Counted from the first letter of the stretch, positions 1,976 to 33,254 are shown. The stretch: DNA of 40,133 bases from a virus (IMGVR_UViG_3300045585_000064:1-40133), one strand, 5' to 3'. The notes: generated from the sequence alone by a model not told the origin. Translations and numbers: made by a program.

Positions 1976-2614
1976 ATGCACAAACAGGCTAAAAACACGC
2001 TAATTTTTCTATTGGCGCTATTATTCTTAGCTGTATCAATAAGAGTAAGCGAAGCATTAAAAGAAAAACAAGAGCCGACTAATACATTTTACATAATACA
2101 CGAAATAGACGACGGAGAGTATCATCAGAAAATAGAGAGAACACTGTTAAACGCCAAAAAAGGAGATAGAATACTAATTAACATCGATTCTCCTGGGGGC
2201 CACTCAGATATGTCTATAAGAATTTCTGCTGCAATTTTAAAAACTAAAGCTACTGTAACGTGCAAAGTAGGGAAAATGGCTGCAAGCGGGGCAGCAATAA
2301 TATTAGCAAGCTGCCATAAGGTAGAAATACCAAATGATTCGTATATATTATTTCACACAGTAAGGACTCCGGATATATTTGGAAACCCAATATTTTATAA
2401 TGACCCAATACTTACACCAACAGAAAGAGACTATCTTATTAAATTAATATTAGGCGCAAAAGAAAAAACTACGCAAATACTAACGAAATGGCAAACAAGA
2501 GCTATTTATATATATAATCTAGATATTTGGATGTCGGGCGAGCAATATAAAGAGCAGATTTGTAAATTGGCCAACAGGTGCGAATGGAACAGGAAGATAA
2601 TTCGTAGTAAATAA
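1976..2614 (+). CDS. ClpP/S49-like serine peptidase with N-terminal membrane signal
   Basis: 212 aa. Residues 8-22 form a hydrophobic stretch after a basic start (MHKQAKN), so the protein should be exported or anchored with its body outside the cytoplasm. SPGG (72-75) matches the ClpP substrate-binding turn. MAASGAA carries the presumed nucleophile Ser104; His127 in YILFHT is the presumed base; the late WMSGEQ recalls the ClpP FMSAEEA segment. About as long as ClpP. A similar exported protein follows at 3024 with the same 23-residue Ser-His spacing. Its own hairpin leader and downstream terminator suggest separate control. Whether it is active, and its substrate, are unknown. Confidence 0.75.
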   Translation: MHKQAKNTLIFLLALLFLAVSIRVSEALKEKQEPTNTFYIIHEIDDGEYHQKIERTLLNAKKGDRILINIDSPGGHSDMSIRISAAILKTKATVTCKVGKMAASGAAIILASCHKVEIPNDSYILFHTVRTPDIFGNPIFYNDPILTPTERDYLIKLILGAKEKTTQILTKWQTRAIYIYNLDIWMSGEQYKEQICKLANRCEWNRKIIRSK

Positions 2615-2636
2615 AAGACAATAAAATATAAAGAAT

Positions 2637-2659
2637 AACCCGCTAAATGCGGGTTTTTT
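2637..2659 (+). terminator. intrinsic terminator
   Basis: AACCCGC (2637-2643), loop TAAAT, GCGGGTT (2649-2655), then T run to 2659. Lies after the first ClpP-like gene and before a new promoter (2685), marking an operon boundary. Confidence 0.9.
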
Positions 2660-2684
2660 CTTTTGTACTTAGGGTTTTTATATG

Positions 2685-2712
2685 TTGACAGGGCGCTAAA
2701 CAAGAGTAAGAT
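2685..2712 (+). promoter_or_regulatory. sigma70-like promoter
   Basis: TTGACA (2685-2690), 16-bp spacer, TAAGAT (2707-2712). It restarts transcription immediately after the terminator at 2637-2659. Confidence 0.72.
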
Positions 2713-2742
2713 TGGCACTAACAAGTCAACAGGAGAGTAAAA

Positions 2743-2952
2743 ATGGACTATACATACAGAACAGATAAGATGCTAGAGACTCTTAAAAGCGTCATAGAAA
2801 TGAAAAACGCATTTAGAGCACTAAATAAAGCAGATGTGTTAGAAGGCTTAACAAAAGAACAAAAAATAAAGCTGGAAGAACGCATAAATGAGATAGAACT
2901 AAGCGTAGAGCACGTAGGCAGATTATGTAAGAGAGTGTTTGAACACTTATAG
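2743..2952 (+). CDS. small helical protein, 69 aa
   Basis: Begins MDYTYRTDKMLETLKSV. CAGGAGAG precedes the ATG. Almost fully helical, with charged heptads (KEQKIKLEERINEIELSVE), so a coiled coil is likely. It sits between the two ClpP-like genes. A role as their partner is possible but not shown by the sequence. Confidence 0.72.
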   Translation: MDYTYRTDKMLETLKSVIEMKNAFRALNKADVLEGLTKEQKIKLEERINEIELSVEHVGRLCKRVFEHL

Positions 2953-2962
2953 AAAATACCTA

Positions 2963-2990
2963 TATACAAGTATTGAATCAAGAGTATTAT
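2963..2990 (+). promoter_or_regulatory. possible weak promoter
   Basis: TATACA (2963-2968, 4 of 6 matches to TTGACA), 16-bp spacer, TATTAT (2985-2990), placed 34 bases before the second ClpP-like gene. The spacing agrees with the stronger promoters; the -35 box is poor. Confidence 0.35.
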
Positions 2991-3023
2991 TGAGTCATGG
3001 ATACACGTAAGAAAGGCCCTAAA

Positions 3024-3584
3024 ATGAAAAAGTCAATTTTGATAGCTGCGCTAATATCAGCAAGCATAGTAACTGCAAAAGCAGAGTTAATATTCACAGA
3101 CGTCCCAAGCCCTCTTATGAACGGCTCAGTAGAGGGGGCCAAATTAGTCAGCAAATTAAAAGGTATGAAAGACGGCGACGCAAACATACTATATTTTAAT
3201 GCGTTAGGCGGCGAAGTGGCCGAAGGCTTTAAAATAGGCGCAGAACTAAATAAAAATTCACATAGAACAGTATGCGTGTTAAAAACAGCAGGCTCTATGG
3301 CCGCAATACTTCTAGGAGCATGCACAAACATAAAACTTCTAGACAACTCTAAAGTATTAATACATGCCGCAAGAGACAAAGATAAAGACGGCAAGCCAGT
3401 TTTTGATACAGAAGACGTTAAAAAAACTAACGAAATATTTAAAAAGGTGCTGGCCCCCATATTAACCGAAGAAGAAATGACAGCAGTATTTGTAGATCAT
3501 AAAGATTTAATCATGTCAGGTGAGGAGTATGTAACCAGACGCAGAATGGCAGATAAATACTCAACAGAAGGAGCAGCGAAATGA
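3024..3584 (+). CDS. second exported ClpP/S49-like serine peptidase
   Basis: 186 aa from this start, chosen because AAAGGCCCTAAA lies directly before the ATG and the protein then opens with a textbook signal peptide (MKKSILIAALISASIVTAKA, predicted cleavage before Glu21). The in-frame codon at 2997 would bury the signal. Presumed catalytic residues are Ser91 (TAGSMAA) and His114 (KVLIHA), 23 apart as in the protein at 1976, and LIMSGEEY matches its WMSGEQY. The substrate turn is ALGGE instead of SPGG. Predicted periplasmic in a Gram-negative host. The stop overlaps the next gene by 4 bases. Confidence 0.75.
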   Translation: MKKSILIAALISASIVTAKAELIFTDVPSPLMNGSVEGAKLVSKLKGMKDGDANILYFNALGGEVAEGFKIGAELNKNSHRTVCVLKTAGSMAAILLGACTNIKLLDNSKVLIHAARDKDKDGKPVFDTEDVKKTNEIFKKVLAPILTEEEMTAVFVDHKDLIMSGEEYVTRRRMADKYSTEGAAK

Positions 3585-3844
3585 TTAAGCAACTAGACAA
3601 ACATACACTAATTACAAAACGAGATAGCGAGTTTTTTATAGTGTGGGTAGGTAAAAGAAACACGTGGGAAATTGCGTATTTTAACAATACTCAAGATATA
3701 CTAGATTTAGATTTACTAGAAGGAAGAAAAGGGTCTATAATGCAAAGCATATTAGAGTTAACCGACCACAGTAAAAAAATATATTTTGCAGAGACTGAGG
3801 AGGACGTAAACAACATAATCGGAGTTAAAGTATGGGCAACATAA
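3581..3844 (+). CDS. hypothetical protein, 87 aa
   Basis: ATGA overlap with the preceding peptidase gene, with GAAGGAG upstream, so translation is coupled. Begins MIKQLDKHTLITKRDSEFF. Alternating strand-like and helical stretches; soluble. No recognised family. Confidence 0.72.
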   Translation: MIKQLDKHTLITKRDSEFFIVWVGKRNTWEIAYFNNTQDILDLDLLEGRKGSIMQSILELTDHSKKIYFAETEEDVNNIIGVKVWAT

Positions 3845-4062
3845 AAACGATTATAAGAGAAATCAAACATATTGAAGACTATATAAGATTTCAAAGCGAA
3901 ATAGAAAGAATGGGCATAGAAGTATTGGAGAAGACGGGAAGTAAAACAATGTTGCAGGCAATGCTTGAGTTAGGGTTAGAAATAGAACAGGCAGAGAAAG
4001 CACATCAGGAACTGTGTTTTAGATTGGAGAGAGAATATGGACTACGTAAGCATTATATCTAA
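3832..4062 (+). CDS. helical protein, 76 aa
   Basis: Begins MGNIKTIIREIKHIEDYI and overlaps the previous gene by 13 bases in another frame. Long amphipathic helices with heptad-like spacing (LEIEQAEKAHQELCFRLE). GGAGTTAAAG precedes the start. Function unknown. Confidence 0.68.
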   Translation: MGNIKTIIREIKHIEDYIRFQSEIERMGIEVLEKTGSKTMLQAMLELGLEIEQAEKAHQELCFRLEREYGLRKHYI

Positions 4063-4189
4063 TCTATGTTACGAGATAGCTGCGCTCGAGAAAAAACTAG
4101 ACGAGCTTAAACGAGAACTAGATAAAGAAAGCCGAGAATATAGAAAATCAATTCAAAAGGAGCAGAAAAATGTTAACCCGTTTAATTAA
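4037..4189 (+). CDS. small coiled-coil protein, 50 aa
   Basis: Begins MDYVSIISNLCYEIAALEKK and runs to KNVNPFN. Strong heptads over residues 14-40. GGAGAGAGAAT directly precedes the ATG, which lies inside the end of the previous gene. Its own 3' end overlaps the next gene by 20 bases, continuing the chain of out-of-frame overlaps. Confidence 0.65.
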   Translation: MDYVSIISNLCYEIAALEKKLDELKRELDKESREYRKSIQKEQKNVNPFN

Positions 4190-4340
4190 TGAATCAATAA
4201 TTCTAATAACAACAATTATTTTAAGCACAATAGTAGTCGTGACGGGCTTAGCTAAAGTGTTATTTAACGCCCCAACATACTTAATACACATATTTGTGCA
4301 GAACCACAAAGATATAAGACAAAAAGTGCTTAGTAAATAA
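4170..4340 (+). CDS. small membrane protein, 56 aa
   Basis: Begins MLTRLINESIILITTIILST; residues 8-30 form a membrane helix, and a second weaker hydrophobic patch (FNAPTYLIHIF) follows before a basic tail. AAAAGGAGCAGAAAA lies before the ATG. Located immediately upstream of the unfoldase gene. Function unknown. Confidence 0.68.
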   Translation: MLTRLINESIILITTIILSTIVVVTGLAKVLFNAPTYLIHIFVQNHKDIRQKVLSK

Positions 4341-4358
4341 TAAAGAAAGGCCAACAAT

Positions 4359-5375
4359 ATGAATTCGTTAGAATATATAACCGTAAATCAGCTTGCAGAA
4401 ATTCAAGATGAATTCAGAGAAGCTGCAAAAAACGCGCTAGGACTCGTACACCCAAAACGATTAATAAGCAATTTAGATAGAGTTGTTATAGGGCAAGACG
4501 AAGCCAAAAAGAAACTAGCTACAGCAGTTTTCACACACGTAACTAAACAATACATGCTTAGTTTGCCAAACCACAGCGAAAAATATGGAAATAAGAACAA
4601 CATTTTGTTAATGGGGCCATCAGGAGTAGGGAAAACCCTTATGATCAGAACGATAGCAGCGATGACAAATTTGCCGCTAATAGAAATTGACGCCACCAAC
4701 ATCACGCCCTCAGGCTATGTAGGACGAAACTTTGATATAGAGTTTAGAAATATAGTTAAAGATACTGTAGAGAAGTATGGCCCTCGAAAATCAAATTTCT
4801 CTATTGTTTTTATAGATGAGATTGACAAGGTTTGCGGCGAGGACATGAGTCGCCAAGGCTGGAATAAGAGCATACAGGCATCGTTTTTAAAATATGTAGA
4901 GGGGCGAGACGTCGACGGGGCGACAAAGTTTCAAGTATCAGATTCGCCAGGAATAAGCTCAAGTACTATGTTATTTGTATTCGGAGGAAACTTTGAACAA
5001 GTAAGAAATAACAGAATAGTAAAGGCTAATATGGGGTTCACAGGTAAACTAGACATAGAGACACAACGAACAGAAGTGCACGATGAGCTCATTAGAGCAG
5101 GAGTCATGCCTGAGTTAGCAGGGCGAATCGCATCTGTTGCTGAACTTCAAAAGCTTACGAAAGAGCAATATAAACAAGTATTAACAGAATCAGAAGTAAG
5201 CCCATATAAAGACTACTTAAAAATGTTTAGATTCTTAGGAGAAGACGGCACTCTGAGCGAGGAGGAGATCGACGTCGCGGTGGACGAGGCATATAATAGC
5301 GATACAGGGTTAAGAAGTATTAACAGCATCCTATCAAAGGTATATTCTGAAAAAATATACAATTTAAACTTTTAG
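4359..5375 (+). CDS. ClpX-like AAA+ protein unfoldase
   Basis: 338 aa. Walker A GPSGVGKT (86-93), Walker B IVFIDE (149-154), and the GYVG pore loop (119-122) that grips substrate in ClpX/HslU. MGF (225-227) falls where ClpX has its IGF loop, the element that docks on ClpP; MPELAGRI matches the ClpX IPEFIGRL block that ends in the sensor arginine. It lacks the ClpX N-terminal zinc domain and is shorter than the usual 420 or so residues, so substrate choice must differ. The MGF tripeptide argues for ClpX over HslU. It could drive host ClpP, the HslV-like protein at 8317, or act alone as a chaperone. The two exported ClpP-like proteins should not meet it in the cytoplasm. Confidence 0.88.
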   Translation: MNSLEYITVNQLAEIQDEFREAAKNALGLVHPKRLISNLDRVVIGQDEAKKKLATAVFTHVTKQYMLSLPNHSEKYGNKNNILLMGPSGVGKTLMIRTIAAMTNLPLIEIDATNITPSGYVGRNFDIEFRNIVKDTVEKYGPRKSNFSIVFIDEIDKVCGEDMSRQGWNKSIQASFLKYVEGRDVDGATKFQVSDSPGISSSTMLFVFGGNFEQVRNNRIVKANMGFTGKLDIETQRTEVHDELIRAGVMPELAGRIASVAELQKLTKEQYKQVLTESEVSPYKDYLKMFRFLGEDGTLSEEEIDVAVDEAYNSDTGLRSINSILSKVYSEKIYNLNF

Positions 5376-5384
5376 GAGGTAAAA

Positions 5385-5645
5385 ATGTTAAAGCACGCGA
5401 TATCGGCTTCATACACACTCATGAAACCTATACACACTAATTATTGGAAGGCAAGAAAAAGTGCAGAAAAAGCGATAAATAGCGAAGATATGCCAATATT
5501 AAATATGTGGTTACGATTGTGTTGGTTAAGAGCGAGTACATCGCTATATGAAATATTTGTAGCTTGGGCAGGCTTATATAGAAAGTATGTTATGGGAGAG
5601 GACAAATGTCACAAAGTAAAAGAAAATCTACACTGGAGGCCATAA
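5385..5645 (+). CDS. hypothetical protein, 86 aa
   Basis: Begins MLKHAISASYTLMKPIH, 9 bases after the unfoldase stop, with AGGAGG before the ATG. Basic and tryptophan-rich, with an amphipathic central part (MWLRLCWLRASTSLYEIF) that might lie on a membrane. Its end overlaps the next gene by 40 bases. No family recognised. Confidence 0.68.
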   Translation: MLKHAISASYTLMKPIHTNYWKARKSAEKAINSEDMPILNMWLRLCWLRASTSLYEIFVAWAGLYRKYVMGEDKCHKVKENLHWRP

Positions 5646-5818
5646 TAAACGCATTGTTAGGATACGTGATAAATTCAATAATAGCGTATTACACAATGCA
5701 CGCTTTAGGCTACCACATAACTATAGAGGAAAATTTGTCTATAGGCGTTCTGTTTGTAACAGTATCATTTATTAAAACATATTTGTTAAGACGATTATTT
5801 ACAATGGGCGAGAAATAA
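5606..5818 (+). CDS. DUF7220-like two-helix membrane protein, 70 aa
   Basis: Pattern MSQSKRKSTLEAIINALLGY ... ITIEENLSIGVLFVTVSF ... LLRRLF matches a small membrane protein family widespread in phages (I recall it as DUF7220), with two transmembrane helices and a basic C-terminus. GGGAGAGG precedes the ATG, which lies within the previous gene. Its stop shares bases with the next start (TAATG). Biochemical role unknown. Confidence 0.72.
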   Translation: MSQSKRKSTLEAIINALLGYVINSIIAYYTMHALGYHITIEENLSIGVLFVTVSFIKTYLLRRLFTMGEK

Positions 5819-6126
5819 TGAAAAACTACCAAGACAGTGCACAAGGCTTCGACGAAGAGGGAATAAGGAGCTTAACAGATTACTACTCAGTAAATAAAGC
5901 ATATAAAAGAATAAGAGTTCTTAGGTGGGCAGGTACAGTAAGCTACCTAATAGGGATGTCGCTTACAGCACTTAATATTTACCCACTAAATTTAATATTT
6001 GGTGCTTTGGGTGGCCTTCTGTGGTTTACTGTAGGTAAGAGTTGGGGAGACAGGGCGTTATGTACAGCAGAGGGGGCCAGCTTTTTAATATATGCGAGCG
6101 GGCTTATACTGCTAATTTTTAAATAA
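5818..6126 (+). CDS. membrane protein with two to three helices, 102 aa
   Basis: A soluble N-terminus (about 35 residues) is followed by hydrophobic segments around WAGTVSYLIGMSLTALNIY, LNLIFGALGGLLWFTVG and FLIYASGLILLIF. The NIYPLN motif and helix layout recall small phage membrane proteins of the DUF6552 type; the match is by eye only. Coupled to the previous gene by TAATG. Confidence 0.68.
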   Translation: MKNYQDSAQGFDEEGIRSLTDYYSVNKAYKRIRVLRWAGTVSYLIGMSLTALNIYPLNLIFGALGGLLWFTVGKSWGDRALCTAEGASFLIYASGLILLIFK

Positions 6127-6136
6127 AGAGGTTGAT

Positions 6137-6415
6137 ATGAAACTAGAAATTAAAAAGCAAGAAAATAAAATTGTAACATTACCTAAGCCTACTTTAGAGG
6201 AAAGTGTAGAATACTTAAGTAAAGAAGTAGATAACCTAAAATTAATTAATGACATGGTGGAAGAATCATTTCGCAACGCAACAATACAGTCAGCGTACGA
6301 GCTTAAAAAGGCCATAGAATCAGGAAGCCTAGAAGAAATAAGAGAGTGCGCCATAAACTTGTTTAGGTTCATGGGAATTCGGCCAGAGCATTTTCTAGAC
6401 CTAGACAGAAAGTAG
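6137..6415 (+). CDS. hypothetical protein, 92 aa
   Basis: Begins MKLEIKKQENKIVTLPKP; GAGG precedes the ATG. Acidic helical body with a long helix around residues 20-75. The C-terminus FRFMGIRPEHFLDLDRK is compact. Lies between two membrane-protein genes. No recognised family. Confidence 0.7.
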   Translation: MKLEIKKQENKIVTLPKPTLEESVEYLSKEVDNLKLINDMVEESFRNATIQSAYELKKAIESGSLEEIRECAINLFRFMGIRPEHFLDLDRK

Positions 6416-6423
6416 GAGTTAGT

Positions 6424-7296
6424 ATGATTAAGTTAAAATGGCCCCCTCTTCTAACAGCGCTGCTGCTATTAATAATAATTGCAGAAATAGCATCTACAAG
6501 CTACATTCCAGAGTTTCGTAAGATATTTTATGGGGCGCTAGAAGTAAAAAGTAAAGCAGACATAGCGTATGCTGTGTTCGTGTTCATTGTTGTCAGTTCA
6601 ATACTTACAGCAAGCCAAAGTCTAAAGAGATTTGTTGCAGCTACAATAAGTTTAAATCTAAGGGGCCAACTAACAAAAAGGCTAACTAAATTCTGGCAGC
6701 CTCATAAAACGCTAGAAAACACGTCTCAACGTATAAACGAAGACACCAAACTCGCCACAGAGCTAGCTCTAAAAGTTTTAATAGAGATGGTTATATCAGG
6801 GGCCATAGTAATAGTGCTCGTTATCGAATCTAGAGGCGATAAAATATTACTAGCTGCGGCACTAGCGTATACAGTAGTAGTTAGCATATTTGCTAAGTTT
6901 TTTAAGCCTAAATTAATAAACACTGAAATTGCACTACAGCGCGCCGAGGCAACGCACAGGCACAATCTGTCAGAGGCCATAGTAAAAGATAATAGAGGCA
7001 AATTGGCCGCAACTCTGCAAGACTTCAGAGAAGTAGCAAACAAATATACTAGCAACTTACGAGTATTACTCGGCTATTCCACGTTCTCGGCCGCACAAAA
7101 CAACTTCTCGATTCTGGCCCCCTGGTTAATACTGATTCCAATGTATCTATTAGGTAGTATATCATTAGGCGAGCTCATGTCGAAAGTATCGAAGTTTGAG
7201 TTGATTGTGATAAATAGTACGATATTGATAACCTTGTATCCAGAAATGACTAAAGCACAGGCATCGTGGATACGTATTAAGGAGTTTTTAAAATGA
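6424..7296 (+). CDS. SbmA/BacA-like membrane protein (ABC-type transmembrane domain)
   Basis: 290 aa with about six hydrophobic helices. SQRINEDT (101-108), preceded by LRGQLTKRLTKFWQ, reproduces the SbmA/BacA signature in which LR...W...SQR(V/I)QEDT follows the second helix pair; a later QRAEATHRHNL and the final ITL-type helix (GSISLGELMSKVSKF) also agree. No nucleotide-binding domain is fused and none is encoded nearby, as in SbmA, which is driven by the proton gradient. SbmA has about 406 residues, so this is a short form. Ribosome binding site TAGGAG. In bacteria these proteins import peptides across the inner membrane. Why a phage carries one is unknown. Confidence 0.72.
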   Translation: MIKLKWPPLLTALLLLIIIAEIASTSYIPEFRKIFYGALEVKSKADIAYAVFVFIVVSSILTASQSLKRFVAATISLNLRGQLTKRLTKFWQPHKTLENTSQRINEDTKLATELALKVLIEMVISGAIVIVLVIESRGDKILLAAALAYTVVVSIFAKFFKPKLINTEIALQRAEATHRHNLSEAIVKDNRGKLAATLQDFREVANKYTSNLRVLLGYSTFSAAQNNFSILAPWLILIPMYLLGSISLGELMSKVSKFELIVINSTILITLYPEMTKAQASWIRIKEFLK

Positions 7297-7469
7297 AAAG
7301 ATCAGATGCAAACACCATACAAATATCTTACGACGAATTTGCAGACTTATTAGAGACCGCAGTGAATGCAGGTTTTAAAGTTAGTATAGACGGATTTAAC
7401 GAAGATATTGAAGAGACTCTTAAGGACGAGGTTTTCAAAATCATGCTAGATAAGAGGCTTTTAAAATGA
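7293..7469 (+). CDS. small acidic protein, 58 aa
   Basis: Begins MKRSDANTIQISYDEFADLL. AAGGAG lies upstream and the ATG overlaps the stop of the SbmA-like gene (ATGA); its own stop overlaps the next ATG in the same way. Soluble, alpha/beta-like. Unknown function. Confidence 0.7.
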   Translation: MKRSDANTIQISYDEFADLLETAVNAGFKVSIDGFNEDIEETLKDEVFKIMLDKRLLK

Positions 7470-7783
7470 GAATAGCTTTAGATTATGACGAGACGTATAC
7501 CTTAGATAAAGGTTTTTGGGGAACATTTATAAATTATGCTAAGCTAAGCGGGCACGACATAAGGATTGTCACTGCTAGAGATAAAAATATCGACACAATA
7601 AAAGAAGATTTAGGTATCGAAGTAATCTACTGTAATGGAGTAGCTAAAAGGTATTATGTAGAAAGAAACACAGGTTTTAGGCCAGATATTTGGATAGACG
7701 ACTGTCCCGAGAATATTATAAATAATAGCACGTATACAGAAGAAGAGTTGTATTTGTGGAGAAAAGAGAGAGGGATACTATGA
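7466..7783 (+). CDS. HAD-superfamily phosphatase-like protein
   Basis: 105 aa. LDYDET (residues 4-9) is the HAD motif DxDx(T/E)T with the nucleophile at Asp6; IVTARD is motif II; IDDCPE is the acidic motif IV. A minimal HAD core without a cap, as in small phage nucleotidases and kinase-phosphatase domains. Next to a nucleotide pyrophosphohydrolase-like gene, so nucleotide or nucleic-acid 3'-phosphate turnover is plausible. Overlaps its neighbours by 4 bases on each side. Confidence 0.75.
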   Translation: MRIALDYDETYTLDKGFWGTFINYAKLSGHDIRIVTARDKNIDTIKEDLGIEVIYCNGVAKRYYVERNTGFRPDIWIDDCPENIINNSTYTEEELYLWRKERGIL

Positions 7784-8133
7784 AAGAATTTGACAGCGGG
7801 GCAAAAAAAGATAATGCTGGAAAATTGCCATATCACTTGATAACAAAAGAGATGATGGATGCTTTAGCAGAGGCGCTAGAGTTAGGCATAAAAAAGGGCT
7901 ACGGAGAAAATAATTGGCAAAAAGGCTTGCCGTTAGCTAGCGTAAGCGTAGCAGCCTCTTTAAGGCACACATTCAAATATTTAGCAGGAGAAGACTTAAA
8001 CGTAGAAAAAGGTATTAATGGAGAGGAAATTATTGTACATCATTTATGCTGTGCTATGGTAAACTTAGGGATGGCGATAACTCAGATTAAGAGAGATCGT
8101 AAGGACTTAGATGATAGATATATAGGAGAGTGA
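7780..8133 (+). CDS. dATP/dGTP diphosphohydrolase-like protein (DUF5664 family)
   Basis: 117 aa from the ATG overlapping the previous stop, preceded by GAGAGAGGG; an in-frame ATG at 7756 is less likely. Signature elements of the family in order: DNAGKLPYHLI, ALAEALELGIKKGYG, NNWQKGLP, SLRHTFKYLAGED and a late histidine pair (VHHL) before a helix. I recall this family as the N-terminal domain named after viral dATP/dGTP diphosphohydrolases such as MazZ. It would act on the cellular dNTP pool during replication. No PurZ gene is present, so a Z-genome is not implied. Confidence 0.75.
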   Translation: MKEFDSGAKKDNAGKLPYHLITKEMMDALAEALELGIKKGYGENNWQKGLPLASVSVAASLRHTFKYLAGEDLNVEKGINGEEIIVHHLCCAMVNLGMAITQIKRDRKDLDDRYIGE

Positions 8134-8135
8134 GA

Positions 8136-8315
8136 ATGTCTAAGAAAGCTGAAGCAGATAAAGAGGTCGGTCTATCAAATATTTTAAAATCTCTGAAAGA
8201 AACAGAGAAAGTGGTATTGGAAGTAGGGCCCAGTAGCAGGGATTTTGGACTAGCTCAAAATATTTATATAGAAGTGTCAAAGCTAATTAAGAGACTCGAA
8301 AATTTAGGAGTTTAA
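8136..8315 (+). CDS. small helical protein, 59 aa
   Basis: Starts MSKKAEADKEVGLSNILK; the ATG at 8136 has AGGAG about 7 bases upstream, better than an in-frame GTG at 8130. Two helical stretches with a proline/serine link (EVGPSSRDF). Sits directly before the Ntn hydrolase gene. Unknown role. Confidence 0.68.
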   Translation: MSKKAEADKEVGLSNILKSLKETEKVVLEVGPSSRDFGLAQNIYIEVSKLIKRLENLGV

Positions 8316-8316
8316 T

Positions 8317-8886
8317 ATGACGTGCATAGTCCTGAGTAGAGACGATAAAAATATGTATATAGCTGGAGATAGGAGAGTAGCAAGCGATTCTAGCTACTTT
8401 AAATATCCCGTAGCTAAAGTTGCTAATAAGCACGGAGTACTCATAGGTGGGGCAGGACGCATGTCTCTTATGGAGGAGATATTGTACGGCTGTGAGTTTC
8501 CTAAAAAACTAAAGTCTCAATCGGACGCTGCATATATTAGAAAGACCATATACTCGACTATTTTTAATTACATAAAAGACCTTGAAGATTCATTAGATTC
8601 AGAGGATAGAGATATAACGTTTTTAATCGGCTATGCTGGAGTAGGCTTCGAGTTAGATTTAGACGACAAAGGGGTAGATTTCGGAATGGTGGAGCTACCA
8701 TATAGCATCGGGAGCGGAGCGCCGTATGCCAGAGGCGCTCTAGCGGCATTAAAACAAGGAAACACCACAGAACAAGAAAGATTGATGACTGCGCTGTCGG
8801 CAGCAGCGTCGTGTGACACAGGATGTAGTTTCGATTGCGACATATTAATTGAGAGCATTAACAGGAGGGGCCATGTAGAGAGCTAA
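8317..8886 (+). CDS. HslV / proteasome-beta-like Ntn hydrolase
   Basis: 189 aa beginning MTCIVLSRDDK. Removing Met leaves Thr1 as N-terminal nucleophile, with no propeptide needed. Numbering from Thr1, AGDRR gives Asp17 and PVAKV gives Lys33: the classic proteasome/HslV residues at their exact positions. GGAG (43-46) and SIGSGAPYARGALAAL match the HslV IGSGGNYA segment that carries the catalytic-site Ser/Gly. The C-terminal TALSAAASCDTGC recalls the HslV helix before ICIYTN. Ribosome binding site AGGAG. Similar peptidases form double rings that need an ATPase; the only candidate here is the unfoldase at 4359. Confidence 0.82.
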   Translation: MTCIVLSRDDKNMYIAGDRRVASDSSYFKYPVAKVANKHGVLIGGAGRMSLMEEILYGCEFPKKLKSQSDAAYIRKTIYSTIFNYIKDLEDSLDSEDRDITFLIGYAGVGFELDLDDKGVDFGMVELPYSIGSGAPYARGALAALKQGNTTEQERLMTALSAAASCDTGCSFDCDILIESINRRGHVES

Positions 8887-8930
8887 ATAAAAGAAAGTTA
8901 AACACTTAGATATTAATAGGAGAATATTAA

Positions 8931-9503
8931 ATGAACGACAAAGTAAAACCATACGTTACACCAGTATTAAAAGTTTTATACACCAACTTAATGGAGGCTA
9001 GGGCAAACCAGTTTTACCCAAACAACCCGCCAACATTTAGTGTTAAAACATCTATCGACGGCTCAACACCTGAAGGGATGCAACTTAAAAAGTTAATTCG
9101 CGCAGCCAACCCCAAATACGTAAAGACCTCAAAAACAGATGAAAATGGGGATACGGTAGTGTTTCCTAATGGGGAATTTCACGTAGAGTTTAAGGCAGAT
9201 GCTGGAAACCCCCCTAAAGTGTATATTAAAAACTCTGATACGGGCGCCATCGAGCTAGTAAAAGGGAAAGATATCCCTTACATAAATGCCAATAAGTATG
9301 GCGACGTGGCCGAAGCTGTGGTTGGATTTACTATTGTGGATAAAGTTAGTGAGAAACATGGCCCATACCAAGTAATGCGCCTGTCTGCAATAACATTCAC
9401 ATCCATTAGCCTAGGAGATCGCGCTAAATCAGCAGGAGCGTCGATTAGCAATCAGGAGTATGCTGACGAGGAAATTGAGAAGTTGATGAAGGCAGCAGTT
9501 TAA
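8931..9503 (+). CDS. single-stranded DNA-binding protein (T7 gp2.5-like / OB-fold)
   Basis: 190 aa. Begins MNDKVKPYVTPVLKVLYTNL; the middle is beta-rich with many lysines and aromatics (FHVEFKADAGNPPKVYIKN), and the tail is acidic (YADEEIEKLM), as in ssDNA-binding proteins that recruit partners by an acidic C-terminus. It sits directly before the DNA polymerase, the place of the ssDNA-binding gene in many podoviruses. AGGAGA precedes the ATG. Assigned from layout and context, not from a diagnostic motif. Confidence 0.6.
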   Translation: MNDKVKPYVTPVLKVLYTNLMEARANQFYPNNPPTFSVKTSIDGSTPEGMQLKKLIRAANPKYVKTSKTDENGDTVVFPNGEFHVEFKADAGNPPKVYIKNSDTGAIELVKGKDIPYINANKYGDVAEAVVGFTIVDKVSEKHGPYQVMRLSAITFTSISLGDRAKSAGASISNQEYADEEIEKLMKAAV

Positions 9504-9541: not shown

Positions 9542-11611
9542 ATGTTAGCTATAGACTTTGAGACGCATTTAATAGGTAACGACAGTCTGGCCCCAAAGCC
9601 AGTCTGCGTTTCTTATTATGACGGCAAAAAAGACGGTTTAATTGTTGGCATGTCCGAGATGGAGCAGTACCTAGAGTATGCACTGTCGCAAGAGAAATTA
9701 GTAGCTCATTATTTCAAATTTGAAGGGACTGTGATATACAGACATTTCCCTAAACTAAGAGAGAAGTTACTCTCCGCTATAGAAGAGGGTCGCGTCTATT
9801 GCACCAAAGTAGCAGAAGAGGTATTAAGCGCTCAAAGAAAACGTTTGGCAGGGGGGGCCACGCTCTCTGACTGTGTTATGCGCTACTTTAAAGAAGATAT
9901 CTCGGCAGGCAAGAAGGGCGCCGATGTTTGGCGCTTAAGATATGGTGAGCTAGAGGGCAAACCTCTAAGCCTATGGCCTAAAGAGGCAGTAGACTATGCT
10001 ATATCAGATTCTATTTGGGCATATAAAGTAGCAGACATTCAAGCCGAAGCAGTAGATTTAGATGTCGCTAAGTTCACCACACGAGCAGAACTATATCTAG
10101 GGCTGATGGGTAATACAGGGATTTTAGTAAATCAAGATAGAGTTAATCAGCTTGAGAAAGAGCTATTACAACTTCTGGCCCCCAGTAGGCAGTATCTACT
10201 AGAGAATGACTTCATGTACTACGATAAGAAGGGAGTAATACATACTAGAAATAAGCGCCTATCAGAATACATTGAGAAAAATGTAGAAGTTCCTATAAGA
10301 ACAGATAAGGGCGGCATAAGCCTCAGCAGCGAGAACTTAGATAATTACGATTTAGAAAACCTGCCGCCGCTAAAGCACTATAAAGACTCGTTAGAGTATT
10401 CTAAGATGGTTAATGCCTTCGTCCCAAGACTTAAGTCGGCCGCCCCATATTTATTCACAGACTATAAAGGCAGCGTCAAAACAGGGAGAACGTCCTCAAG
10501 AACTTCAGACCACTACCCCTCTGTAAACATTCAACAAATGCCCAGAAAGGTCGAGAATGTAACATACGACGTTAGAAACTGTTTTGTCCCAAGACCAGGC
10601 TACTATATAGTAAGTATAGATTATTCGGCGCTAGAACTGTCTACATGCGCAAATCAGCTATTTAACCACTATGGCGAATCTGCCATGTTGAGAATATTAA
10701 ACGCAGGCAATGAGCCGCTAGACCTTCACACAGAACTTGGCAGAAGGCTAATGCAACTCTCTACTGGTAAGCACGTAACATACGAGGAATTCTTTAAAAA
10801 TAAGAAGATGGCCCCCTATGCAGGATTTAGACAACTAGCAAAACCTCTAAATTTAGGGTTCCCCGGAGGGATTGGGTACGTCACCATGAGGAGTTTACTA
10901 TACAAAGAAGGCATCAGACCTAAATACGTAAATATTACAAAAGGTCTTAACTTGAAACCTGAGCAATCAGAAGAGGCTGTAATGTTCTTATTAAGAAGAT
11001 TTCAGCATAAGTATAAGAATTTAAGGTGTGAGCAAATAGGTAGAAACCAATATTGTTTAGTAGCGGACGAGTTGGTAGAATTAAAACAAGAGATGTTTAA
11101 GCTGTATCCAGATTTAGAGGACTTCTTAAAAGAGGGCCATAAGCAATATTTAACAGGTAAATCAAAACAAGTTAAAAATAATTTTGGAGAATGGAAGAAA
11201 GAGGAGCTTTATTCCTACTCTATACCAGGCGGAATTGTTAGAGATAACTGTACTTATACTGAGCTATGTAACGGATATTTAATGCAGAGCGCGGCAGCTA
11301 AGGGGGCCAAAGAGGCTGTTTGTAGAGCAGTTAAGAAGTATTATGGGGGCGATTGGCTGCGCCCTCTAGCTTTTATACATGACGAGATATTGGCCGAGGT
11401 TAAGATTTGCAATATAACCTATGAATTGGTAGAGGACTTGGCTACCATTATGATAGACTCTATGAGGTCGGCACTACCTCATGTTAGGATTGCGGTAGAG
11501 GCCGATATTATGGACGCTTGGAAGAAAGAAGGAGGCTTTTATCAAAAAACATTTTTCAAGAATGCTGGCGAAAATACTTTAAGAAGTTATAACGAGAAGG
11601 GGAAAATATAA
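9542..11611 (+). CDS. family A DNA polymerase with 3'-5' exonuclease domain
   Basis: 689 aa, close to T7 gp5 (704). Exonuclease motif I is LAIDFET (Asp5, Glu7) at the N-terminus. Polymerase motif A is SIDYSALELST, motif B is RQLAKPLNLGFPGGIGY, motif C is FIHDEI. GRTSSRTSDHYPSVNIQQMP precedes motif A as in phage replicases. No separate primase or helicase gene is seen, so host enzymes must supply those steps. The ribosome binding site is weak (AAAG); a TGGCCCCC octamer (9511) inside a small TATGG/CCATA hairpin lies 24 bases upstream. Four octamers lie inside the gene. Confidence 0.95.
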   Translation: MLAIDFETHLIGNDSLAPKPVCVSYYDGKKDGLIVGMSEMEQYLEYALSQEKLVAHYFKFEGTVIYRHFPKLREKLLSAIEEGRVYCTKVAEEVLSAQRKRLAGGATLSDCVMRYFKEDISAGKKGADVWRLRYGELEGKPLSLWPKEAVDYAISDSIWAYKVADIQAEAVDLDVAKFTTRAELYLGLMGNTGILVNQDRVNQLEKELLQLLAPSRQYLLENDFMYYDKKGVIHTRNKRLSEYIEKNVEVPIRTDKGGISLSSENLDNYDLENLPPLKHYKDSLEYSKMVNAFVPRLKSAAPYLFTDYKGSVKTGRTSSRTSDHYPSVNIQQMPRKVENVTYDVRNCFVPRPGYYIVSIDYSALELSTCANQLFNHYGESAMLRILNAGNEPLDLHTELGRRLMQLSTGKHVTYEEFFKNKKMAPYAGFRQLAKPLNLGFPGGIGYVTMRSLLYKEGIRPKYVNITKGLNLKPEQSEEAVMFLLRRFQHKYKNLRCEQIGRNQYCLVADELVELKQEMFKLYPDLEDFLKEGHKQYLTGKSKQVKNNFGEWKKEELYSYSIPGGIVRDNCTYTELCNGYLMQSAAAKGAKEAVCRAVKKYYGGDWLRPLAFIHDEILAEVKICNITYELVEDLATIMIDSMRSALPHVRIAVEADIMDAWKKEGGFYQKTFFKNAGENTLRSYNEKGKI

Positions 11612-15028: not shown

Positions 15029-15500
15029 CATCCTTAACCCACTTAGCTATTAAGAGGGACTCGGCTCGGCCGTCGTCCTTCTTTCTTTTTATAGGGGCAT
15101 CAGGGAAGAACTTTAGTGCAAGAAGCCTTGAATCCTCTTTAGTGGTCTTTATAAGCCCGTAGTGCTTCTTCCACGTCTGAGGTATAACATCGAACCTACG
15201 CACGTTTAAGAGGTTTAGAGTAGCTAATAAGGCCCCGTAATTCTTGCCAAAAGTAAAAGACGATCTAGGCGTGTCTCCAAACCCTCTACTAACATCATAT
15301 ATTGCTTGCACTCGCTCTACTGCCAGCATCTCAAAAGGGATTTTAAGGGCAGCTAAACTATCTAATAGCTCAACACTATCCAACTCGTATTTGTCACCCA
15401 TCTCTCTATATGGCAGATCGTCACAATAAATAACATTATCTTCAGAGTCTATAACTGAAATGGCCCCCTGCTTACCCGGGTCTGCTCCTATGTAATACAT
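15018..15500 (-). CDS. RuvC-like Holliday junction resolvase
   Basis: 160 aa. IGADPGKQGA carries Asp7 of the RNase H-fold active site, AVERVQA gives Glu62, and DDGRAESLLIA (Asp142/143, Glu147) is the signature C-terminal helix of phage RuvC-like resolvases. It would resolve branched DNA before packaging. It is the last gene of the leftward late arm, downstream of the lysis genes, while the other recombination genes lie on the opposite arm. One octamer (15461) encodes the GAI part of its first strand. Confidence 0.85.
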   Translation of the reverse strand: MYYIGADPGKQGAISVIDSEDNVIYCDDLPYREMGDKYELDSVELLDSLAALKIPFEMLAVERVQAIYDVSRGFGDTPRSSFTFGKNYGALLATLNLLNVRRFDVIPQTWKKHYGLIKTTKEDSRLLALKFFPDAPIKRKKDDGRAESLLIAKWVKDAKS

Positions 15501-15501
15501 A

Positions 15502-15801
15502 TTATTTTCTCATACACGTTAATAAATATTCGTAATGCTCTCTATCTTCACTGTCCTTAACCCAAGTGTCGTTAGACACTCTTAACCTGTGCTTCCCATC
15601 TTTAGCCATGCACCAAGGGTTTATTGCGTCATTTTCTGTTAGAGGTATGTACGAGTCAATCTCATCTAAATTGTTTAATGTCTTAGAGAGCCTTATTTTT
15701 TCTTTACTGCGCAAGGCTCTGTGCCACATCTTTTTGTCGCTCTTCTCAGACTCGGCAGTAGTAAAGCCGCAGAAAGGGCTATGTTTTACGCTTCTACTCA
15801 T
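15502..15801 (-). CDS. hypothetical protein, 99 aa
   Basis: Begins MSRSVKHSPFCGFTTAESEK then KKMWHRALRSKEK. This basic opening with SRS-K-P-G and S-K-D-K spacing is seen in small phage and plasmid proteins of unknown role. Overlaps the previous gene by one base. Soluble, no membrane segment. Confidence 0.7.
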   Translation of the reverse strand: MSRSVKHSPFCGFTTAESEKSDKKMWHRALRSKEKIRLSKTLNNLDEIDSYIPLTENDAINPWCMAKDGKHRLRVSNDTWVKDSEDREHYEYLLTCMRK

Positions 15802-16025
15802 TAGCGCTCTGCAATCTTATCTAATTTAGCCTCAATACGATCTAGTCGATCGTTGATGTACTCTTTGTGTAGATTAATAACTTTCTCTACAGACTCGAAG
15901 TCATTGTGGTCGGCCTTATCTTTTAACTGAGATTTGAGGTCTAGCACTTGGTGTTGAACATACCCAATGGCCGCCATAATCGGCACAGCAACGTAAGTTT
16001 GAACGCTTTGTAATATGTCCAACAT
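15801..16025 (-). CDS. small protein with N-terminal hydrophobic helix and coiled coil, 74 aa
   Basis: Residues 1-24 (MLDILQSVQTYVAVPIMAAI) are hydrophobic; the rest is a heptad coiled coil ending NDRLDRIEAKLDKIAER. AAGGA precedes the ATG. It lies in the lysis cassette between the lysozyme and two small genes, so it may be a membrane lysis accessory protein, such as an inner-membrane spanin-like or holin-modulating protein. No partner outer-membrane spanin lipoprotein was found. Confidence 0.65.
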   Translation of the reverse strand: MLDILQSVQTYVAVPIMAAIGYVQHQVLDLKSQLKDKADHNDFESVEKVINLHKEYINDRLDRIEAKLDKIAER

Positions 16026-16035
16026 GATAAAGTCC

Positions 16036-16458
16036 TTAGAAGATAAGCATCGACGCTTCCTCTGCGCGCCTAGCTATTAGTCCTGGCAGTTTTCTATGGC
16101 CTGCATATACCCACTTATTTATTTCTCTCTTGGCCCCCTCTAAGTCGTCAGATTCTACCTTCCGTCTTAAGGTGCTATTTTTATATCTGTTTTCGCCTAA
16201 GTTATATACGAAATCTGCTAATGCCATTAATGTACTTCCTGATACTTTTGGGCTATATTTCAATACTGCTGCTATACATTTAGCAGCATCTAATCTCATA
16301 GCTTGCTCTGCTTGCTCTTTAGTCCATACAGAATCTACAGATACTTGGGGGCCAGTGGTTCCATAACCTATTGTAAGCACTCCAGCAGGGCAAAAATACG
16401 CCTTTAGGCGCAGGCCCTCATATTTTCTAATCAATCTGTATAGAGGTTCAAAATTCAT
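16036..16458 (-). CDS. endolysin, T4-lysozyme-type muramidase (GH24)
   Basis: 140 aa. KYEGLRLKAYFCPAGVLTIG shows the family triad with its fixed spacing: Glu14, Cys23 (in the place of Asp) and Thr29. LADFVYNLGE and GLIARRAEEA are the usual later motifs. No signal peptide or anchor at the N-terminus, so it should need the holin encoded just upstream to reach the cell wall. Starts at the stop codon of the holin gene (TAATG). Confidence 0.92.
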   Translation of the reverse strand: MNFEPLYRLIRKYEGLRLKAYFCPAGVLTIGYGTTGPQVSVDSVWTKEQAEQAMRLDAAKCIAAVLKYSPKVSGSTLMALADFVYNLGENRYKNSTLRRKVESDDLEGAKREINKWVYAGHRKLPGLIARRAEEASMLIF

Positions 16459-16922
16459 TATTTGTGCTCTTTACTTAAACTTCTGTTAGCAAAGTAAAAC
16501 CCTAATACTACGCCGAGCATAGTGACGTCAAATTCGTTTATTACGAAATTTCTACTTATTATGGAGCCCACCCAAATCGCTAATGATATGGTCGCAGCGG
16601 CAGGACGTATGGCCCCATTCCAAGCATCTATAACTTTAATTCCGATAGGCTTAATTGCCTCTACTGTAGCGAGAGCGAAACCTTGAGCATCTATTTTATT
16701 TAGATCAGCCTCCGATTGAACTTGAATTTGCTTAATCCCTAGTTCAGTAACTGTTTTAAGTCTCAATAGCTCTCTTGACGCAGCGTCTGCATCTAGTTGA
16801 GCCTGAAGCCTCATTCTGGCCATCTCTTGCACATGGTCTTGCTTTTTAGTGAAAAAGTCTGATACCCAACCAAAGATGTATCTAAACGCCGCACTACCTA
16901 AGAAACCGATTATTGCTTCCAC
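16458..16922 (-). CDS. holin of the 3TM family
   Basis: 154 aa with a GTG start; GGAG lies 7 bases upstream. A first hydrophobic stretch at residues 4-20, a charged coiled-coil middle, then two C-terminal membrane helices. AWNGAIRPAAATISLAIWVG and LGVVLGFYFANRSL match the W-N-x-x-x-R-P and F-W/F-x-N/D-R-x-L pattern of the GTA_holin_3TM family. Directly upstream of the lysozyme, as expected. The GTG overlaps the end of the micropeptide gene at 16910-17014. Confidence 0.78.
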   Translation of the reverse strand: MEAIIGFLGSAAFRYIFGWVSDFFTKKQDHVQEMARMRLQAQLDADAASRELLRLKTVTELGIKQIQVQSEADLNKIDAQGFALATVEAIKPIGIKVIDAWNGAIRPAAATISLAIWVGSIISRNFVINEFDVTMLGVVLGFYFANRSLSKEHK

Positions 16923-32432: not shown

Positions 32433-33254
32433 CTATTTTTTAATGCTTATTAATTTTCCATATAAAGTCTTTAACTTCTCCCCAGCCTCCTTATAGCCTC
32501 TGCTTGCTGGGTTTAGGAAATCTTGAGACTTTCTTATTTCATTAATTTGAGCTTTAATAGACTCTTCGCTGTCTACTTGACCTGACCCGTTTACGCTAAT
32601 TATCTTACTATTTCCTTCTGCAGAATTTTTACCTAACTCTGCAAGCATAGATAATAGTAGAGGGTTATTTGCTAGTGGGGAGGCTAAAAGCTCTTTTGCA
32701 CTATCTCCGAATTTATCTACTAATTCTTTAGCTGTATTTTTAGCTAATGATATGTTTTTATCGTAATCGTTGCCCCACAATTTTTTAACGGACTCCTCGT
32801 CTGCCTTTGCCTTCTCTTGAATGGCCTCTAACATTTTAGAGTGTCTGTCGTTGTGAATAGCTAAAATTTCTTTGACTTGAGCATCTGTAAGATTGGCTTT
32901 GTGCATACGCTCTAAAGAATCTTTCAAATCCTCGAAAGTCTCGCCTGTAGTTAACTCTGGCAAATTATACTTATCTACTGACTCGGGCCGCCCCAACTTG
33001 CCATAAAACTCTGCTAATTCTTGCTCTGTGGCCCCCTCTCCTGGAACCTTAACGCTAGAGCCGATTAACTTTTGAGCATTTACATAGCTCTTAGCTAAAC
33101 TCTCTACGTCTTTAAATTTACTTAATGTAGCGTTCCCTTTTAGCTCATCGCTTAGTGAATCTATCCAAGATACAGGTTTGCTTTCAACTACTTGTTGAGG
33201 CTCTACTGCTTCTACCGTCTCTACTTGCTGAACTTCTAAACTTTCGTCGCTCAT
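32433..33254 (-). CDS. scaffolding / capsid assembly protein
   Basis: 273 aa. An acidic, glutamine-rich start (VEAVEPQQVVESKPVSW) followed by GNATLSKFKDVESLAKSYVN, GSSVKVPGEGATEQELAEFY and GRPESVDKYNLP, the usual order in podovirus scaffolds (T7 gp9-like position, directly before the capsid). A charged helical middle and a short basic C-terminus (GEKLKTLYGKLISIKK), which in such proteins binds the coat. Overlaps the Bbp19-like gene by one base. Confidence 0.85.
   Translation of the reverse strand: MSDESLEVQQVETVEAVEPQQVVESKPVSWIDSLSDELKGNATLSKFKDVESLAKSYVNAQKLIGSSVKVPGEGATEQELAEFYGKLGRPESVDKYNLPELTTGETFEDLKDSLERMHKANLTDAQVKEILAIHNDRHSKMLEAIQEKAKADEESVKKLWGNDYDKNISLAKNTAKELVDKFGDSAKELLASPLANNPLLLSMLAELGKNSAEGNSKIISVNGSGQVDSEESIKAQINEIRKSQDFLNPASRGYKEAGEKLKTLYGKLISIKK

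Follow-up and report, generated by a model that had tools for sequence, protein, structure and literature searches.

Predicted exported ClpP-like peptidases and a reduced ClpX-like unfoldase form a compact cassette in the early region of a 40-kb phage lineage

The window analysed here, a linear IMG/VR virus record of 40,133 bp (IMGVR_UViG_3300045585_000064), carries four genuine genes for proteins that cut or unfold other proteins: two ClpP-like serine peptidases with predicted export signals, a reduced ClpX-like AAA+ unfoldase and a proteasome/HslV-like peptidase. As judged from synteny with related contigs, the conserved unit is an exported ClpP-like peptidase together with the ClpX-like unfoldase, usually accompanied by an SbmA-like membrane protein, and the HslV-like gene appears to be inherited apart from it. 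We regard the chances as about even that these genes represent an early-region protease cassette for host takeover, close to which lies a proteasome-type peptidase gene with an inheritance of its own. An earlier note on this DNA had recognized the two ClpP-like peptidases, the ClpX-type unfoldase and the Thr1/Asp17/Lys33 peptidase, and profile searches, alignments and structure models confirmed both the families and the active sites. The note had grouped these four genes as one set, a grouping that is replaced by the conserved unit described above, to which the SbmA-like protein, unlisted at the time, usually belongs.

All four open reading frames (1976-2614, 3024-3584, 4359-5375 and 8317-8886) are on the plus strand and are followed, on the same strand, by SSB-like, DNA polymerase and exonuclease genes, whereas the structural genes of the window occupy the opposite strand. 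The early location away from the capsid genes, as originally proposed, holds by this gene order, and early expression is presumed from it. Three proteins served as synteny anchors or lineage marker: a protein with a dATP/dGTP pyrophosphohydrolase N-domain (7756-8133, plus strand; PF18909, 2.4e-17; 54-57% identity in the relatives G121 and G122, see below), the putative single-strand-binding-like replication protein (8931-9503, plus strand) and the family A DNA polymerase (9542-11611, plus strand; phrog_17, 9e-39). Family searches with the second of these gave no match; its position suggests the single-strand-binding role, and proteins with 27-29% identity are encoded immediately upstream of the polymerase in G121, G122 and G071. 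For the polymerase itself the values are 49-51% in these three contigs and 40-51% in G050. In the late region, the gene at 32433-33254 encodes a phrog_3742 protein that matches phrog_458 'protease' less strongly and may serve in capsid assembly or as a scaffold.

The two ClpP-like peptidases are divergent members of their family. The first (1976-2614, plus strand, 212 amino acids, exported or membrane-anchored by prediction) matches PF00574 with an E-value of 1.5e-6 and phrog_1827 with 4e-21, has a hydrophobic N-terminus at residues 9-27 and the triad Ser104/His127/Asp183. The second (3024-3584, plus strand, 186 amino acids; PF00574, 8e-6) has a predicted Sec-type signal, MKKSILIAALISASIVTAKA, and the triad Ser91/His114/Asp161; its start is likely at 3024 rather than 2997, because the former has the better Shine-Dalgarno sequence. 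With 28.7 and 26.2 bits, respectively, both exceed the Pfam CLP_protease cut-off of 20.2, and both triads line up with the Ser, His and Asp of ClpP. The fold was modelled for the protein of 3024 only (pLDDT 82), and the top PDB match of this model is ClpP (E-value 2e-7). Thus, the two proteins share the fold and the triad with ClpP, but their scores against the ClpP-type NCBIfam equivalogs (about 19-23 bits) are far below the cut-offs, and they are not predicted to be cytoplasmic: both N-termini have basic residues followed by a hydrophobic stretch, in the case of 3024 with an AKA-type cleavage site. These features, as read from hydropathy, support the export signals and the two compartments proposed in the earlier note. 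Among the five exported ClpP-like proteins of the window (two) and its relatives (three), which have pairwise identities of 20-43%, all five have a complete Ser-His-Asp triad and the basic and hydrophobic N-terminus; the latter is present neither in T5.042 nor in the cytosolic ClpP of G071. It may be that the predicted exported proteins require a ring.

ClpP-fold proteases outside the cytoplasm are also found among bacterial proteins such as NfeD and SppA, and the protein of 1976 matches NfeD1b_N and SppA weakly, below the cut-off. However, the bacterial proteases are longer, whereas the phage proteins retain the ClpP-type His and Asp. A scan of genome contigs with the reduced ClpX retrieved apparent housekeeping ClpX genes from a wide range of bacteria. 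When ten of these bacterial genomes were searched with a profile of the exported ClpP-like proteins, no short exported ClpP-like protein was found; the matches were mainly housekeeping-type ClpP and longer ClpP-fold proteins that resemble NfeD and SppA in length and N-terminus. A plasmid collection contained no match to 1976 or 3024.

The unfoldase (4359-5375, plus strand, 338 amino acids) is clearly related to ClpX (NCBIfam ClpX, 5e-54; phrog_4339, 2e-54; ClpX in the PDB, 6e-40). It has Walker A and B motifs, the arginine finger, sensor 2, a GYVG pore loop and an MGF docking loop, the last being shorter than in ClpX, and it lacks the zinc domain as well as the C-terminal tail. With 183.7 bits against a cut-off of 359 it falls short of the NCBIfam ClpX equivalog. 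Neither is it an HslU: it scores 116 bits against the HslU cut-off of 362, its match to HslU in the PDB covers mainly residues 31-135, and no HslU-type insertion was found in the protein. The only PADLOC matches were weak ones to AAA+ proteins. In ClpX, the IGF loop is the contact with ClpP, as named in the title of PDB entry 6wr2, the zinc domain binds adaptors and the RKH motif recognizes the ssrA tag. The IGF or MGF loop and the ATPase motifs are retained in all four unfoldases of the lineage; the N-terminal zinc-binding domain is missing from all four, which have no CxxC pairs, and the RKH motif from three, including that of the window. An altered choice of substrates is therefore to be expected. 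Since the triads, the ATPase motifs and the IGF/MGF loop have all been kept, activity and docking to ClpP appear to be under selection. The retention of this loop, and a ClpP gene that overlaps the end of one of the unfoldase genes, argue for ClpP as the probable partner.

Single-protein queries of viral contigs with the four window proteins identified no close relatives. Alignments of the portal, ClpX and polymerase proteins, however, led to four contigs that share the DNA polymerase with the window, so that the lineage sample comprises five genomes: G121 (IMGVR_UViG_3300049855_000314, 39.5 kb, locus L281), which is collinear with the window along most of its genome, G050 (IMGVR_UViG_3300009009_000007, 39.7 kb, L273), and the fragments G122 (IMGVR_UViG_3300019871_000008, 20.7 kb, L283) and G071 (IMGVR_UViG_3300006919_000937, 16.2 kb, L173). 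An exported ClpP-like gene adjoins the gene for a ClpX-like protein without zinc domain in four of the five, and three of these have the SbmA-like gene as well. G121 encodes an exported ClpP-like protein (1021-1572), a reduced ClpX (2067-3083) and an SbmA-like protein (3165-4082), and G122 a ClpP-like (3762-4304), a ClpX-like (5099-6223) and an SbmA-like protein (6791-7726). In both, the SbmA-like gene is beside the ClpX-like gene; in G122, a gene for an MPTase-PolyVal zincin metallopeptidase (6220-6777, 4e-26) lies between the two. In G071, the exported ClpP-like (1753-2472) and ClpX-like (2481-3473) genes are followed by one for a canonical cytosolic ClpP (3470-4060; PF00574, 1.5e-84) that lacks a hydrophobic N-terminus and overlaps the end of the unfoldase gene. 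The order, exported ClpP-like and then reduced ClpX-like, is constant in the four genomes although the identity among the ClpX-like proteins is only 31-55%. Scattered and degenerate genes in relatives would have counted against the original observation; instead, they are syntenic and retain their active sites. No SbmA-like gene was found in the 16.2-kb fragment of G071, and G050 lacks the exported ClpP-like, ClpX-like and SbmA-like genes altogether, so no part of the cassette is essential to the lineage.

The SbmA/BacA-like protein of the window (6424-7296, plus strand, 290 amino acids) is 45% identical to its homologues in G121 and G122. It matches PF05992 with an E-value of 4.6e-12 (46.5 bits, cut-off 24) and has five hydrophobic segments, which suggests that it could be involved in the movement of peptides across the inner membrane. 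Compared with the SbmA/BacA transporters, with which it shares PF05992, it is shorter, covers only positions 90-366 of the 413 of the model and is encoded by a phage. No match to it was present among 50,697 phage records, and a literature search found no phage SbmA-like proteins. Another small membrane protein, of the DUF6552 family, is encoded at 5818-6126; its copy in G121 is located after the DNA polymerase gene (8819-9028).

The proteasome/HslV-like Ntn peptidase (8317-8886, plus strand, 189 amino acids; phrog_1040 'peptidase HslV family', 5e-17) has Thr1, Asp17 and Lys33, which are invariant among 28 viral homologues. Its model (pLDDT 92) has the proteasome fold, with BPH (6e-10) and HslV (6e-9) as structural matches and helices at residues 49-58 and 70-92. 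It thus shares the fold and catalytic residues of HslV but reaches only 22 bits against the equivalog cut-off of 137. The phage proteasome homologues of phrog_1040 (those of the T5-like phage S132 and of Vibrio phage 2.058.O, and the PPH and AAH proteins of PMC8665760) likewise have Thr1/Asp17/Lys33 and an early-region location and lack an AAA+ partner, but the identity of the window protein to those aligned is only 20-28%. The protein is also different from PPH, which is defined by about 140 residues and a missing helix H2 (PMC8665760): in its model, this helix is present. Fuchs et al. reported that the new proteasome homologues, including those of phages, do not co-occur with AAA+ interactors, and BPH has no known unfoldase (PMC8665760). 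In G050, two tandem HslV-like genes (15423-16127 and 16202-16876) are found at the same position, upstream of the genes for the SSB-like protein and the polymerase; no HslV-like gene was found in the corresponding interval of G121, G122 or G071.

Starting from the families, active-site residues, synteny and domain loss, we infer the following course of events. The ClpX-like unfoldase would dock with its MGF loop on a ClpP barrel, that of the host in the case of the window and the phage's own in G071, and would thread a set of substrates unlike that of host ClpX, since it has lost both the zinc domain for adaptors and the RKH motif for the ssrA tag. Beyond the inner membrane, the exported ClpP-like peptidases would act without ATP on envelope proteins that are short or unfolded, or on peptides; if their signals are functional, they cannot meet the cytoplasmic unfoldase. 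The SbmA-like protein might carry peptides across the inner membrane and in this way be functionally tied to the exported peptidases, and the HslV-like protein would act as a BPH-type, ATP-independent peptidase. It is tempting to connect the two compartments by a peptide route, in which the ClpP-like proteins cut periplasmic envelope proteins or incoming peptides, the SbmA-like protein imports the products, and the reduced ClpX degrades proteins inside with host ClpP. In this way, peptide toxins would be disarmed or amino acids salvaged by the phage in the course of infection; we consider this extension a long shot.

Several other explanations were weighed against the host-takeover cassette. 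The earlier note had implied a cytoplasmic pair in which the unfoldase feeds the HslV-like peptidase, as in a phage HslUV-type machine. Both proteins are without export signals and have intact ATPase and peptidase sites, and their genes lie on the same strand, 3 kb apart. However, their phyletic patterns in the lineage are opposite, G050 having HslV-like genes without the unfoldase, and G121, G122 and G071 the unfoldase without HslV. Among viral contigs with a ClpX-like gene, a ClpP-like gene is also present in 22 of 50 but an HslV-like gene in none, and of 49 contigs with an HslV-like gene, eight encode a ClpP that exceeds the cut-off, and none has more than a weak AAA+ match; as these contigs are often fragments, absence from any single one is weak evidence. 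The sole AAA+ candidate partner is not an HslU and does not co-occur with HslV-like genes; it lacks the HslU-type insertion and has kept the loop for contact with ClpP, and the closest fold of the peptidase is BPH, all of which make such a machine very improbable. Alternatively, the reduced ClpX could be a protease-free chaperone that remodels replication or assembly complexes of the phage, with the exported ClpP-like proteins as unrelated passengers of the early region. ClpX acts without a protease in phage Mu transposition, and no cytosolic ClpP was found in the window, G121 or G122. A replication role has also been proposed for the ClpX of phage Atu_ph07 by its authors (PMC6102473), and the cassette lies immediately upstream of the replication genes. 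Nevertheless, this is an unlikely explanation, as the IGF/MGF loop, needed only for docking to ClpP, is kept in all four unfoldases, the ClpP gene of G071 overlaps the unfoldase gene, and an exported ClpP-like gene is adjacent in all four genomes.

The exported peptidases could also guard the occupied cell by cutting outer-membrane or periplasmic receptors, thus blocking superinfection, or by cutting peptide toxins, with the SbmA-like protein in the same envelope role. The export signals, intact triads and membrane-protein neighbours (SbmA-like and DUF6552) would fit, but no receptor-cutting homologue was found, the close relative G050 persists without the cassette, and the exported ClpP-like proteins have no match in PADLOC, which covers host defence and not superinfection exclusion; we regard a guarding role as distinctly doubtful. 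Finally, the genes may be hitch-hiking accessories without a joint function, brought together because early regions gather such genes: lone ClpP-like or HslV-like genes also occur among the early genes of T5-like and jumbo phages, and the gene set varies across the five lineage members. The order of exported ClpP-like and reduced ClpX genes in four genomes, at 31-55% ClpX-like identity and with active sites kept, speaks against mere proximity, and we do not think it probable.

For phage-encoded Clp genes in general, the genes are known, but their role has largely been a matter of guesswork. The combination had been thought to be absent from described phages; this does not hold, since Salicola phage SCTP-2 (ClpX, ClpP, two HslV-like proteins and ClpS), Salmonella phage S132 (a ClpP-like and an HslV-like protein), Atu_ph07 and PA5oct carry several such genes. 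Six of 13 named records contained two or more of these families, the ClpX-like match of PM135 being weak, and SCTP-2 contained all three; as most of these records had been picked for having one family, the value is no frequency. Like the window, Atu_ph07 and PA5oct encode a ClpX-type unfoldase with a ClpP; the Clp set of Atu_ph07 has been published (PMC6102473), and in a survey of jumbo phages, ClpP and ClpS were suggested to act on the host and ClpX to serve as a translocase (PMC7824862). In contrast to the 40-kb window, however, Atu_ph07, PA5oct and SCTP-2 have genomes of 287-490 kb, full-length ClpX proteins with the cysteine residues of the N-terminal zinc domain, and canonical ClpP proteins (PF00574 E-values down to 9e-81), whereas the ClpP-like proteins of the window are divergent, exported by prediction and accompanied by an SbmA-like protein. 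The top phage family for 1976 and 3024 is that of T5.042 (phrog_1827), likewise a divergent early-region ClpP, but T5.042 has no hydrophobic N-terminus and T5 no ClpX-like match. Thus, several Clp/HslV genes in one phage are already known, and what is new is the compact cassette of exported ClpP-like, reduced ClpX and SbmA-like proteins. It opens two questions, whether phages retarget host ClpP by an unfoldase of altered specificity and whether they carry out proteolysis beyond the inner membrane; moreover, an SbmA-like protein in a phage would bear on the uptake of peptides by infected cells. Of several phage-filed records with ClpX that resembled useful relatives, two, MT835536 and MD-2021a (loci L003 and L015), were rejected, as they hold clpP-clpX loci of bacteria; contaminants of this kind raise the number of ClpX genes counted in phage collections. 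Three phrog_1040 matches were observed in Aeromonas phage 2L372X.
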